Source: a virus. Taken from it: a stretch of 23,045 nt of DNA. The translations under genes and the position numbers were made by a program. Positions 5,250 to 22,764 of the stretch are shown one piece after another. The first letter of the stretch is position 1; every line of letters begins with the position of its first letter. The notes under the pieces are model-generated. The model ran no database searches, was not told the origin of the DNA, and saw only the letters and a list, made by a program, of their open reading frames with translations. The stretch lies in IMG/VR virus record IMGVR_UViG_3300023284_002951, positions 1 to 23,045 of that record. One strand, 5' to 3'.

Positions 5250-5935
5250 TGGGTATCGACAACGAAAGCCCCACCATGTCACAGGTTCTCGATTTTGCGA
5301 TAGAAAGAAGTCTGCTTAATCTCCACGTCTCGCTTCCCGCCTCGATCGAGAAATATGACGGGAAGAAGGCCGATGTCAGGATACTTTTGAAACGCCAGTT
5401 GAGACGCAAGAAAGAATCTGATCCGCTGATAGAATTTGAGTTGCCCGTCATCACGAATGTGCCAGTCATATGGCCGCGCACAAAGCTCGCAGAGATACAC
5501 CTTCCCCTCGCAGTGGGCGACACGGGTACATTACTTTTTGCGGAACGTTCGCTTGACACATGGCTTGTAGAAGGTGGATCCATCAACCCGAAGGACTTTC
5601 GCAAACACGACCTGTCGGACGCCCAGTTCATCCCCGGTCTCAAACCATTCTCCGAGGACACGGCGTTCGATCCTTTACGGCTTGTGATCAAACATGACAA
5701 AGGGGTTCTGACGATTACAGCGGATGGCCGTCTGAAGTTCACAAATGGCGTAGAAGAGCTCATGGACCTCGTCAAACAGCTGATCGACAAGACTTCCGAA
5801 CTAAGTGAAAAGGTCTCGGAAGGCACTACGAACACTATGATCGGGGCAAATAAATTCAATAACTTTACTGAGTTCATAACCCTACAGGGTGAGGTTGATA
5901 CAATCGGTACTAAATGGGACACTATCAAGGAATAA
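5249..5935 (+). CDS. Baseplate spike protein (Gp138 N-terminal OB-fold type)
   Basis: A 228-residue protein coupled to the hub by TGATG. Residues about 60-115 ('FELPVITNVPVIWPRTKLAEIHLPLAVGDTGTLLFAERSLDTWL') match the OB-fold N-terminal domain of Gp138/gpV-like membrane-piercing spikes, where 'GD..ll.f.eRslD.Wl' is the hallmark. Residues 140-165 ('PLRLVIKHDKGVLTITADGRLKFTNG') give the short beta segment that begins the trimeric spike. After about 168 the chain becomes helical or coiled coil ('ELMDLVKQLIDKTSELSEKV') instead of a long beta-helix needle, so the tip is short or is supplied by another protein. Confidence 0.8.
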   Translation: MGIDNESPTMSQVLDFAIERSLLNLHVSLPASIEKYDGKKADVRILLKRQLRRKKESDPLIEFELPVITNVPVIWPRTKLAEIHLPLAVGDTGTLLFAERSLDTWLVEGGSINPKDFRKHDLSDAQFIPGLKPFSEDTAFDPLRLVIKHDKGVLTITADGRLKFTNGVEELMDLVKQLIDKTSELSEKVSEGTTNTMIGANKFNNFTEFITLQGEVDTIGTKWDTIKE

Positions 5936-17221: not shown

Positions 17222-18250
17222 GTGGATATTTTCGAAGCATTTCCAGCAACAGCAAAAAATCCAAATGGGTTCAGTCGTGAGCCGATTCCAGAGATTAATA
17301 ACTATATGAGTTACTCTCGGATCAAGACCATGGCGAAGTCCATGGCCGATTACGAGTGGCGTTATATTAAAGGCAACAAGCCCGAAGACACGCCCGAGAA
17401 AGAATTCGGGCGACTGGTTCATAATATGATTTTAGAGTCAGATAAGTTTGCGAAGCACCATTCAATTAGGCCGTCGAGGGAAGATTTCGAGAACTTATTG
17501 GACACGGTCTCTGACTTAAAAGAGGAATTTAAGAAGATACTCATAAAAACTAAATCCTCTGATACCAAACCCAAATTACAAGACTGGCTCGTTAAAATAG
17601 ATCCATTCTATAGAAAGAGAATTTGGCGGTTCATTGAGGAAGATTACGAGAAGACTCTGCCCAAGGAAGCTGTAAGCCTGTCAGCACCTCAATATGACCA
17701 TATTGTCGCCATGAACTCCGCCATTGATCAGAAAGTAATCAAACATAAAATGGCTAGAGATCTAATCACCAATGGATTCCCAGAGGTCTGTGCATATTGG
17801 CATGACGAGGAACTGGAGGTAACTTGGTTTATACGCCTAGATTATCTAAAGGTGAATCCTGTACTAGACACACATTTATTCTGGGCCACAGACCTGAAAA
17901 CTACTAAAAATGGGTCTCCACTTGGCTTCTCCAAGGATGTTGCGAAATGGGGCTATCATTTCCAGAATTGGATATATCATCGGGTTGTGACAGGAATTAC
18001 AGGATGCAAGGTGAATATGGTGAATATTGCAGTGGAAAAAGTAGAGCCCATAGGCGTTGGCGTTTATGAGCCAATAATGAAAGCCAATGACACTGCTGGT
18101 TTCCAAATACGCAATTTGCTGCGCGACTGGAGAGAGTGCCATGCAAAGGGGCGATGGCCCAAATATGAAGAGAGAATTGTCCAAATTGGGCCACCAAATT
18201 GGTATTATTGGCAGGTAGAAGAACAAGCAGATATGGAGGGAGACGCATGA
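17222..18250 (+). CDS. RecE-like exonuclease (PD-(D/E)XK, exodeoxyribonuclease VIII type)
   Basis: 342 residues from GTG 17222 behind GGGGGA. Motifs in order: 'FGRLVHNMILE' (62-72), Glu188 in 'FPEVCAYW', 'WFIRLDYL' with Asp207, 'ATDLKTT' with Asp224-x-Lys226, and 'GYHFQNWIYH' (Tyr245, Gln248, Tyr252). This is the nuclease core of RecE/DUF3799-type proteins, which digest one strand of a DNA end to leave 3' overhangs. The next gene, coupled by ATGA, is the annealing protein that loads on those tails, so the pair forms a single-strand-annealing recombination system. Expression is probably under the operator at 17157-17175. Confidence 0.85.
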   Translation: MDIFEAFPATAKNPNGFSREPIPEINNYMSYSRIKTMAKSMADYEWRYIKGNKPEDTPEKEFGRLVHNMILESDKFAKHHSIRPSREDFENLLDTVSDLKEEFKKILIKTKSSDTKPKLQDWLVKIDPFYRKRIWRFIEEDYEKTLPKEAVSLSAPQYDHIVAMNSAIDQKVIKHKMARDLITNGFPEVCAYWHDEELEVTWFIRLDYLKVNPVLDTHLFWATDLKTTKNGSPLGFSKDVAKWGYHFQNWIYHRVVTGITGCKVNMVNIAVEKVEPIGVGVYEPIMKANDTAGFQIRNLLRDWRECHAKGRWPKYEERIVQIGPPNWYYWQVEEQADMEGDA

Positions 18251-18963
18251 GCGAAACAATAGATACTACAGCACAAAGAATCGAAGAGCCAAAGCCGGAG
18301 GAAAAGAAGGAAACTCTGCCTGTCGTTCGAAGTCCTTTACTAGATATCGAAATGAAAGAAGGCAGTGCAGTTCCGAAAAACATTCAAGAGATGAGGCATC
18401 TGGCCACTATATGGTTGGATGGTGGTGTTCCCAAGTCCTATAAAAACTGGCAGCAGATTGTCTCAGGAATGTCATTCGCCCGAGGGCTAGGACTTCCGGT
18501 CGATGTCTCTTCACTCAAAAATATTGCGGTCATCAATGGCAACCCTTCTCTATGGGGTGATTTGCCTAAGAAGTTAGCCGAAGACTCAGGAGAGCTGGAG
18601 GAGTTTGATGAATATCTAATTGATAAGAATCACAAGCGTATTGAGTTTATAGACAGTTGGGACCAAATATATGCCGCTGTTTGTGTGATCAAGAAAAAAG
18701 ATCAGCCAGAAAAGAAATTCACTTTTACTCGATTTCAGGCCGAGCAAGGTATCCAAGGGGTAAAAGCCATTTGGAAGGGATATTATGATGTGATGATGAT
18801 CCGTAAGGTTAGGGCTAGAGCTCTTAACTCAGAATTTACATCTGTCCTCGGTGGCCGAAGCATTGCTGAGCATGATCATAACTTTGCTCCAGATGCCAAT
18901 GGCATGGAACAAAGAATTAAAGACGTAACGAATACAGTTTCAAACGATTTAGATCACTTGTAG
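18247..18963 (+). CDS. RecT-like single-strand DNA annealing protein
   Basis: 238 residues from ATG 18247, overlapping the exonuclease stop as ATGA; an in-frame ATG at 18199 lies inside the exonuclease and is unlikely. Residues 71-105 ('IVSGMSFARGLGLPVDVSSLKNIAVINGNPSLWGD') match the RecT core, in which a Gly-rich helix leads to the 'i.viNGkp.l.gd' strand. Then 'FTFTRFQAEQ', 'IWKGYYDVMMIRKVRARAL' follow, the usual second half where RecT proteins have 'P..M...RA...a.R'. It anneals complementary single strands during phage recombination and replication. The C-terminal acidic/His tail is not conserved. Confidence 0.85.
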   Translation: MSETIDTTAQRIEEPKPEEKKETLPVVRSPLLDIEMKEGSAVPKNIQEMRHLATIWLDGGVPKSYKNWQQIVSGMSFARGLGLPVDVSSLKNIAVINGNPSLWGDLPKKLAEDSGELEEFDEYLIDKNHKRIEFIDSWDQIYAAVCVIKKKDQPEKKFTFTRFQAEQGIQGVKAIWKGYYDVMMIRKVRARALNSEFTSVLGGRSIAEHDHNFAPDANGMEQRIKDVTNTVSNDLDHL

Positions 18964-19688: not shown

Positions 19689-20063
19689 ATGCAGATTTTA
19701 GTGATTGATGATCATGAAGAATTGCTGAATACAACAAAAGAGATTTTGGAAGATGTAGGGCATAACTGTTCTACGGCTTTGGATGGTGAGGCAGCGCTGA
19801 AGTTATTTCAAGAAGACGATTTTGATTTAATTATAACAGATGTCCAAATGCCGAGAATGGGTGGAATTGAACTCATCACTTTAATTCGTCGCGGGGATAA
19901 ACATCCAAATATTCCGATAATGGCCACCAGCGGGAATATGAATACATATGAAGCAGCCCTTAAAGATATTGGGGCGACTTATACTATTTGTAAGACGGAT
20001 GGTGATGGGCTTTATAGAGTGATCGATGAAGTTTCGACAGCTTTGGTTGCTGAAGGGGCATAG
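19689..20063 (+). CDS. Stand-alone response-regulator receiver domain (CheY-like)
   Basis: 124 residues from ATG 19689 behind GAGGAGG. All receiver landmarks are present: acidic pair Asp7-Asp8 ('ILVIDDHEE'), phospho-acceptor Asp51 in 'DLIITDVQMPRMGG', Thr80-Ser81 in 'IPIMATSG' and Lys102 in 'ICKTDG', where most receivers have 'KP'. There is no output domain, so it would act by binding a partner or by taking phosphate from host histidine kinases. No kinase is in the window. It is followed 1 nt later by a small RHH-like gene that could be its output partner. Confidence 0.88.
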   Translation: MQILVIDDHEELLNTTKEILEDVGHNCSTALDGEAALKLFQEDDFDLIITDVQMPRMGGIELITLIRRGDKHPNIPIMATSGNMNTYEAALKDIGATYTICKTDGDGLYRVIDEVSTALVAEGA

Positions 20064-21208: not shown

Positions 21209-22189
21209 ATGAACTTTTTTAGACACGATTGTAATTCACACGAATCAAAATTCTTCCAAGGGTTAATCAAAAACTTCGGTTTCGAAGGATATGGCCGTTT
21301 TTGGGTACTACTAGAGATCTGTTATGAACAGTTAAACAAGCATGATAAATCCTTCATGGAACGATGCGAAAAGACTGGTGTGGAATTTCAATTCTTCCCA
21401 GATTTGGTATGTCGAAAGCTAAAAGGGAAGTCCAAAAAACTACCAGATCTATTTAATTTTTGCCAAGAGACAAGCGATTTTAGTTGGACTCCTACCGAGT
21501 GGCTACCGACTACCAACCGAGTACCTACCGAGTCAGTACCGAGTACCTACCGAGTGGGTACTCAGTCACCACTGGGTACTGACTCGGTAGCCGCCGGTGG
21601 CCACTCAGTACCTACCGAGTACCCATGGAGTTTCAGGGTACCTAACATATTGAAAAGACTCACTACGAAAGAGTTTCAATATTGGTCGCGCTATTCTTGG
21701 GACGGACATATAAGAGAAGAGAAGATAAGAGAAGATAAGATAAGAGATAAAAATATAACAAAAAAAATCTTGGCCACTCCTCCGGAGCGTCCGCCGGGAG
21801 CAAAGCCCCCACCTCCAGATAAATTTCATTTGCTTACAAACATTTGGAATTTACATTGTGGAACGCTCGGGAAAGTGAAACTCGAAAACCCATCACGCCG
21901 AAAACATATCGCACTGCGCTGGAAGGAAGCGCCCGATGACCGAGAAAAATACTGGACACAAATCGTCAAACGTATGGCCGCGTCGGATTTCTGTACGGGT
22001 AAAACCACTCGTGGGTGGCGGGCGTCGTTCGATTTTCTCCTGAAACCGGATACTCATTTGCGGGTCGATGAGGGCCAATTCGATAATCGCGGATCGGAAT
22101 CAAATCCGCCAGCGCGGCCAACTTTTTCCCAACAAAAAACCAAAAATAATGCGGATTTGTATGCAAAATACGAAGGAGTCGAATCTTGA
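21209..22189 (+). CDS. Replication initiation protein (lambda O/DnaD-like position) with iterons in its gene
   Basis: 326 residues from ATG 21209 behind an unusual G8 run. The N-terminal 'FFRHDCNSHESKFFQGLIKNFGFEGYGRFWVLLEICYEQ' fits the winged-helix start of Lin1244/Lin1753-type (DUF4373) replication proteins ('hd......dpKi..L...fG.eGyg....llE'). Residues 94-146 (Pro/Thr/Ser-rich, with the 11-residue repeat 'PTEWLPTTNRV'/'PTESVPSTYRV') are encoded by DNA iterons. Residues 168-186 are a charged spacer encoded by a purine-rich tract. The C-terminal part (from 205: 'LTNIWNLHCG...V', 'RRKHIALRWKE', 'CTGKTTRGWRASFDFLLKPD') is a typical DNA-binding and partner domain of phage initiators. The following gene is in the helicase-loader position. 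Confidence 0.78.
   Translation: MNFFRHDCNSHESKFFQGLIKNFGFEGYGRFWVLLEICYEQLNKHDKSFMERCEKTGVEFQFFPDLVCRKLKGKSKKLPDLFNFCQETSDFSWTPTEWLPTTNRVPTESVPSTYRVGTQSPLGTDSVAAGGHSVPTEYPWSFRVPNILKRLTTKEFQYWSRYSWDGHIREEKIREDKIRDKNITKKILATPPERPPGAKPPPPDKFHLLTNIWNLHCGTLGKVKLENPSRRKHIALRWKEAPDDREKYWTQIVKRMAASDFCTGKTTRGWRASFDFLLKPDTHLRVDEGQFDNRGSESNPPARPTFSQQKTKNNADLYAKYEGVES
21493..21620. repeat. Iteron array, candidate replication origin
   Basis: Six tandem 11-bp units begin at 21493, 21504, 21515, 21526, 21537 and 21548, with core TACCGAGT (four exact, TACCGACT and AACCGAGT variants). Another exact core is at 21613 and one inverted (ACTCGGTA) at 21582. GTACCTACCGAGT occurs three times (21521, 21543, 21608). 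A 16-bp perfect inverted repeat pairs 21525-21540 with 21575-21590. The array lies inside the initiator gene. Confidence 0.72.
21708..21768. other. AT- and purine-rich tract, candidate DNA unwinding element
   Basis: About 60 bp of nearly pure purine plus T on the plus strand, with three copies of GATAAGA (21724, 21734, 21739), ending in A-rich AAAATATAAC and A8. It lies 90 bp after the last iteron, the order seen at the lambda origin. It also encodes the charged spacer of the initiator, so codon content may explain part of it. Confidence 0.5.
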
Positions 22190-22764
22190 AACTACCACGC
22201 TCTACGGTTGGATTTTATGCTTTCATGGCCCAATATTACCAAATCGAACTGCCAGAACCCACGGCGTTAATCTACGCCCAGGAACTCCAGGGACACACGA
22301 TCGAACAATTGTTCGACGCTTGGAGCCTCTACAAGGCCGATTATAAAAATATCCGTATGCCCCTCCCAAATCAGCTTACGGAGTTTTTGAATAAACGGCT
22401 TGGCGTGAAGGACGCGGCCAATCTGATGGTTTCAAAACTCATCGGGTTGGTCGGGTCCAAGGGGCGTTTGTGGTCGTGGCATCAAGAAAGCGAAGCTGAA
22501 ATCGGCGATGGATATTTCCAACTGGTTTCCGCAGTGATCCGAAATCGGGGTGGGTGGAATCGATTCTGTGACCAGCTCGACAGATGCGCCTCCGAAGAGA
22601 CCTTCAGAGCCCAGCTACGGGACGAACTGGCTGCCACGGTCCAAGCGTCACGGATGGGGCAATTAAGCACGTCACCGGCCCTTATGGAGCCCTCACGGAT
22701 ATTGCGGCTCATCTCGGATACCAGTGAGAAACTACAGTTAGGAGGAGAGACAAATGGAAATTAA
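22186..22764 (+). CDS. Putative helicase loader/replisome organiser (lambda P or G39P position)
   Basis: 192 residues from TTG 22186, which overlaps the initiator stop (TTGA) and has GAAGGAG 7 nt upstream. The N-terminal 75 residues 'FYAFMAQYYQIELPEPTALIYAQELQGHTIEQLFDAWSLYKADYKNIRMPLPNQLTEFL' resemble the small helical domain of phage helicase loader/inhibitor proteins of the G39P type. The C-terminal half is helical and less clear. Position immediately after the initiator supports a role in bringing host DnaB-type helicase to the origin. No P-loop, so it is not a DnaC-type ATPase. Confidence 0.6.
   Translation: MKLPRSTVGFYAFMAQYYQIELPEPTALIYAQELQGHTIEQLFDAWSLYKADYKNIRMPLPNQLTEFLNKRLGVKDAANLMVSKLIGLVGSKGRLWSWHQESEAEIGDGYFQLVSAVIRNRGGWNRFCDQLDRCASEETFRAQLRDELAATVQASRMGQLSTSPALMEPSRILRLISDTSEKLQLGGETNGN

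Follow-up and report, generated by a model that had tools for sequence, protein, structure and literature searches.

The window analyzed here, a 23,045-nucleotide stretch of viral DNA (IMG/VR record IMGVR_UViG_3300023284_002951), carries a replication initiator gene whose middle portion contains an array of 11-bp units, a 16-bp inverted repeat and, downstream of the array, an AT-rich and purine-rich tract (Table 1). Judged by position only, the product of the next gene is a candidate helicase loader; relatives of this protein were found neither in a single-protein search of viral contigs nor among the loci collected. Upstream of the replication genes, an Exonuclease VIII-like gene (17222-18250) is followed by a weak RecT-like match (18199-18963), the two forming a probable recombination pair. 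A short protein at 18973-19362 matches the Recombinase domain PF07508 only, and a stand-alone response-regulator receiver domain protein (PF00072) is encoded in the phage early region at 19689-20063.

Table 1. Features of the initiator locus, with coordinates given as positions in the window.
Feature	Position	Strand	Basis or remark
Replication initiator gene, 326 aa	21209..22189	+	phrog_19658, phrog_345 'replication initiation O-like', phrog_10469; weak Lin1244_N match
N-terminal Lin1244_N-like domain, aa 1 to ~92	21209..21484	+	Weak PF14297 match; alignment with Lin1244_N phage proteins
Nine iteron units in a single exact 11-bp register	21494..21592	+	Cores ACCGAGT/ACCGACT, then ACTCAGT, ACTGGGT, ACTCGGT
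Inverted repeat, left arm	21525..21540	+	CTACCGAGTCAGTACC; 16 bp exact; lies inside the array
Inverted repeat, right arm	21575..21590	-	16 bp exact; inverted stretch of iteron sequence
Two more units, ACTCAGT (21603) and ACCGAGT (21614)	21603..21620	+	Register shifted by -1
Candidate unwinding element	21708..21771	+	AT-rich, purine-rich short repeats (AAGAG/GATAAGA); stability and purine ranking
C-terminal O-like domain, aa 201-317	21809..22159	+	PHROG matches; 298 relatives confirmed in viral contigs; high pLDDT
Next gene	22186..22764	+	TTG start overlaps initiator stop; weak phrog_10105 match (unknown-function family)

The C-terminal third of the initiator (aa 201-317) matches the replication-initiation families phrog_345 (O-like) and phrog_19658 with E-values of 1.4e-15 and 1e-15. 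At the other end of the protein, the Lin1244_N profile (PF14297) matches aa 3-55 at E=1.5e-4 and 22.9 bits, under the 25-bit Pfam gathering cut-off, and both the alignment and the relatives recovered by tblastn support a distant relationship of the N-terminus to Lin1244_N. No close full-length relative of the initiator was found, and single-protein searches of viral contigs and species genomes returned no relatives, these being recovered only through profiles. Structure matches in BFVD included a replication protein, a replisome organizer, a replication initiator protein and a Lin1244_N protein, several of the top matches being uncharacterized or unnamed. In the AlphaFold model the N-terminus is helical and of low confidence, residues 57-146 have pLDDT under 50, and the C-terminal domain stays mostly above 90 as far as residue 290; the purine tract encodes a helix. 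Fold searches of the PDB with both models and a profile search of PDB sequences gave nothing significant, and the N-terminal domain, modelled at low confidence, had no significant match among solved structures. From the family matches together with the AlphaFold model, the array, which starts about where the N-terminal domain ends, is predicted to encode a disordered linker.

The earlier note on this DNA had described six units at exact 11-bp spacing, and these are present: ACCGAGT occurs at 21494, 21516, 21527, 21538 and 21549, and ACCGACT at 21505. The register is even longer than had been noted, extending past unit six with ACTCAGT (21560), ACTGGGT (21571) and ACTCGGT (21582) for a total of nine units. 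The two further cores of the earlier description, one of them inverted, were also located, the inverted ACCGAGT at 21582 (where the plus strand reads ACTCGGT) and the direct one at 21614. The latter is 11 bp from the unit at 21603, and the step from 21582 to 21603 measures 21 bp. The AC...GT core is a 7-bp pseudo-palindrome only, the units of the array being 11-bp direct repeats, and agreement with the consensus, by hand count over the register table, reaches about 87% of cells at core positions and about 56% in the 4-bp spacers. The regularity is not matched by recoded versions of the gene: identity at lag 11 is 41/55, whereas 2000 synonymous recodings never exceeded 35 and 2000 codon permutations never exceeded 29. 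When the heptamer is masked to AC...GT, eight units fall in the 11-bp register, compared with a maximum of 6 in 5000 synonymous recodings, none of which matched the regularity of the array, and a maximum of 3 units elsewhere in the 23-kb window. The 16-bp inverted repeat is exact, as stated, but its left arm lies within the array and not after it. As a single strand, the array region folds better than all of 200 shuffles (200/200, z -5.2), a strong folding that is expected from the inverted copies.

Downstream of the array lies a stretch that the earlier note had not mentioned and that is added here. Among all 60-bp windows of the 23-kb record, the one starting at 21708 has the lowest nearest-neighbour stability (with 40- and 80-bp windows the region ranks second and third, not first), and the most purine-rich 40 bp of the record start at 21714. 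The interval 21706-21775 has 26% GC and 77% purine. On this composition and predicted stability, the 60 bp from 21708 are likely to constitute an unwinding element.

In order to survey related initiator genes, loci were collected by profile search, 80 via the C-terminal domain (of 298 confirmed viral-contig relatives) and 80 via the N-terminal domain, and yielded a non-redundant set of 104 phage initiator genes with a relationship to either domain, with 170 other ORFs from the same contigs serving as background. Tandem similarity was expressed as z scores from block-wise codon shuffles. In the initiator genes, which were picked by their relation to the window and are phylogenetically non-independent, the mean z was 1.89 at lag 11, 0.85 at lag 22, 0.48 at lag 12 and did not exceed 0.24 at any other lag, whereas the background ORFs averaged 0.01 at lag 11 and -0.05 at lag 22. 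A z above 4 at lag 11 or 22 was reached by 24/104 initiator genes versus 1/170 background ORFs (Fisher p=2e-10); about three quarters of the initiator genes (80/104) presented no array at this threshold. The sequences repeated at these lags vary from phage to phage, and in 25 of the 34 initiator genes with arrays at z above 3 the purine maximum of the gene comes directly after the array. Among the nearest relatives, no array was detectable in L269, the closest on the N-terminal side, and L172/L173, the closest on the C-terminal side, carry a different repeat, GGTTACCG, at 22-bp spacing. L172/L173 share 54% of the C-terminal domain of the window, with both the N-terminus and the repeat being different.

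The window's own core was also searched for elsewhere. Ten viral contigs were identified with three ACCGAGT-type cores spaced exactly 11 bp apart, and two of them (L009 and L010) carry the same sequence. In L009/L010, L013 and L017 the repeat falls, according to family search, in the linker of a protein of replication initiation or of the primosome; L014 and L018 resemble these in layout without matching a replication family, and the repeat-bearing protein of L012 is an AAA-domain protein. The mirror-image motif at the same spacing occurred in four contigs, none with the repeat in an initiator gene; the counts are small throughout. Searching the array with blastn against phage records gave weak matches only (E about 6), and the idealised repeat gave no blastn match, possibly due to the low-complexity filter. 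A scan for ACCGAGT with variable gaps was dropped as evidence: most of the matches listed were repeats in coding sequence whose period was divisible by three, and few of them had the (11,11) spacing. In bacterial species genomes, ACCGAGT triples at 11 bp were found in 36 places (L136-L171), mostly outside replication genes, often intergenic and several of them in Pedobacter. Separately, contig L011 carries on its minus strand, at about 5432-5460, a tandem GTGTAAACCGA array at 11 bp with no long open frame, beside GTGTAAACCGGTTTACAC palindromes.

The Lin1244_N phages bear on which domain of the initiator would read the repeat. At least two GTCATG cores were present in the linker of 31 of 54 Lin1244_N phage genes, a GTCATG group that takes in Escherichia phage mEp515. 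Since these 31 genes were chosen on GTCATG, conservation of the core is itself no evidence. No constraint was placed on the spacings, however, and these amounted to 11 bp (34 times), 21 (6 times), 22 (3 times) and 32 (3 times), with 10, 42 and 60 once each. The cores are read in differing codon phases and the spacers differ between phages. The N-terminal parts of the 31 genes form one cluster (BLAST E of 1e-3 or better), and the 29 genes with a C-terminal part over 60 aa fall into ten C-terminal clusters, three of them singletons. One N-terminal cluster set against ten C-terminal ones, together with the different N-terminus and repeat of L172/L173, indicates that the repeat goes with the N-terminal and not the C-terminal domain, and in Lin1244_N phages the N-terminal domain is probably what binds the core. 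By analogy, the N-terminal domain of the window's initiator may bind its 11-bp units.

Iteron plasmids usually carry their iterons outside the rep gene. They resemble the window in that direct iterons, phased to the helix, lie next to an A+T-rich stretch (PMC5043065), and differ from it in using another initiator family, bound as monomers. In the pSK41 plasmid, the boxes to which the N-terminal domain binds lie midway along rep, and the linker residues that this origin encodes can be dispensed with (PMC5703833); RepA_N origins of this type are like the window in layout, with mid-gene boxes that encode a linker, but they belong to a plasmid and a different initiator family. The SPP1 oriL lies within gene 38, where gp38 binds direct repeats in its own gene next to an AT-rich unwinding element (PMC6316719), and is similar to the window in this layout. 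The earlier note had compared the locus with lambda, where O dimers bind iterons that are 19-bp inverted repeats (PMC5043065) and a 40-bp A+T-rich region adjoins these iterons (PMC5043065, PMC7466680). The position inside the initiator gene bears this out, with mid-gene iterons, an AT-rich tract and a C-terminal domain that matches O-like families. The repeat type does not: the window lacks 19-bp inverted repeats in the strict sense of lambda O iterons and has instead 11-bp direct units, one per helical turn, as has been proposed in Salmonella phage L. For that phage, the published proposal is an origin consisting of six imprecise 11-bp repeats inside the O-like gene 18 (PMC8022706). The corresponding record (MW013502) annotates a putative origin, which the lag method recovers with z 8.9 at lag 11. 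The two phages share an O-like initiator gene whose central part holds imprecise direct repeats of 11 bp, followed by an AT-rich stretch; phage L differs in carrying the repeat sequence TGTCCAACGGA in a split array, and its origin was proposed from sequence. The window's unit had been called short and not a known one, and its sequence is indeed absent from the descriptions found; phage L nevertheless provides a precedent for an 11-bp unit within an initiator gene.

Taken together, the observations make it very likely that the array is a replication origin embedded in the phage's own initiator gene. This reading, already put forward in the earlier note, is the best supported one given the initiator family matches, the 60-bp stability minimum of the record that follows the array, and the same kind of layout in relatives. 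Three features of a lambda-type origin residing in an initiator gene are found here, namely location inside that gene, an array of putative initiator sites and an adjacent, easily melted AT-rich tract. In the proposed mechanism, the N-terminal domain of the initiator would bind the 11-bp units, which occur once per helical turn, so that all of them lie on the same DNA face, and would build a nucleoprotein array over ~127 bp; the stress of this array would then open the neighbouring tract rich in purine and AT (~21708-21771), and the replicative helicase or a helicase loader would be recruited by the C-terminal O-like domain. The nearest relatives weigh against the origin reading, L269 being without a detectable array and L172/L173 having another repeat, as do the 80 initiator genes without an array at z above 4, the low-confidence model of the N-terminal domain and the ACCGAGT triples in bacterial genomes, and other origins are possible because the record is only a 23-kb fragment.

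The same protein-DNA contacts could instead serve autoregulation, partition or another form of control, the array being bound by the initiator or by a different phage protein for that purpose and not for origin opening. Phased arrays of winged-helix sites have control and partition roles elsewhere, and the array does lie inside the gene that would be autoregulated. Such a role is nevertheless unlikely, since the adjoining unstable purine tract, like the similar tracts beside the arrays of other phages, is what an unwinding element would be expected to look like, since Salmonella phage L has a comparable layout annotated as a putative origin, and since no sense-strand promoter-like site was found over the array.

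Slippage in a tolerant linker could have generated a neutral minisatellite, an idea to which the probable tolerance of the encoded linker and the 36 bacterial places lend something, but which becomes very unlikely when it is considered that conservation is high in the cores and much lower in the spacers, that the register persists through units altered in sequence and orientation, that other phages keep steps of 11, 21, 22 and 32 bp around a common core with differing spacers, and that the lag-11 signal is absent from background ORFs of the same contigs. Selection on the protein, a Pro/Thr/Ser linker with an 11-residue repeat, would account for a translation that is repetitive, yet it is scarcely credible when 11 bp is no multiple of three, the ACCGAGT and AC...GT cores occupy all three codon phases of the initiator gene, synonymous recoding of the same peptide never regains the DNA regularity, and Lin1244_N phages read one DNA core in different phases. 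The suggestion of the earlier note that DNA rather than protein is under selection therefore holds up, given these codon phases and the predicted disorder of the encoded linker.

The origin type of the window is already known from Salmonella phage L, and no description of the breadth of its 11-bp version across phages was found within the open-licence literature. On balance, we lean towards the view that one-turn (11-bp) arrays in initiator genes represent a widespread, sequence-diverse class of phage origins, in which an N-terminal DNA-binding domain, iterons and a purine-rich tract would travel as a cassette and be joined to different C-terminal helicase-recruiting domains. For this phage, the window provides a testable origin candidate. 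If the survey holds, sequence alone could be enough to locate the origins of many uncultured phages, by the 11-bp period in the initiator linker, and the pairings of DNA-binding domain and repeat would amount to natural experiments on joint change of initiator and origin. Arrays with a 12-bp period were also observed in the initiator linkers of L004, L178 and L210, a set that includes a Marinitoga virus and possibly constitutes a second class, with GAGACGGT-like repeats in L178 and L210.
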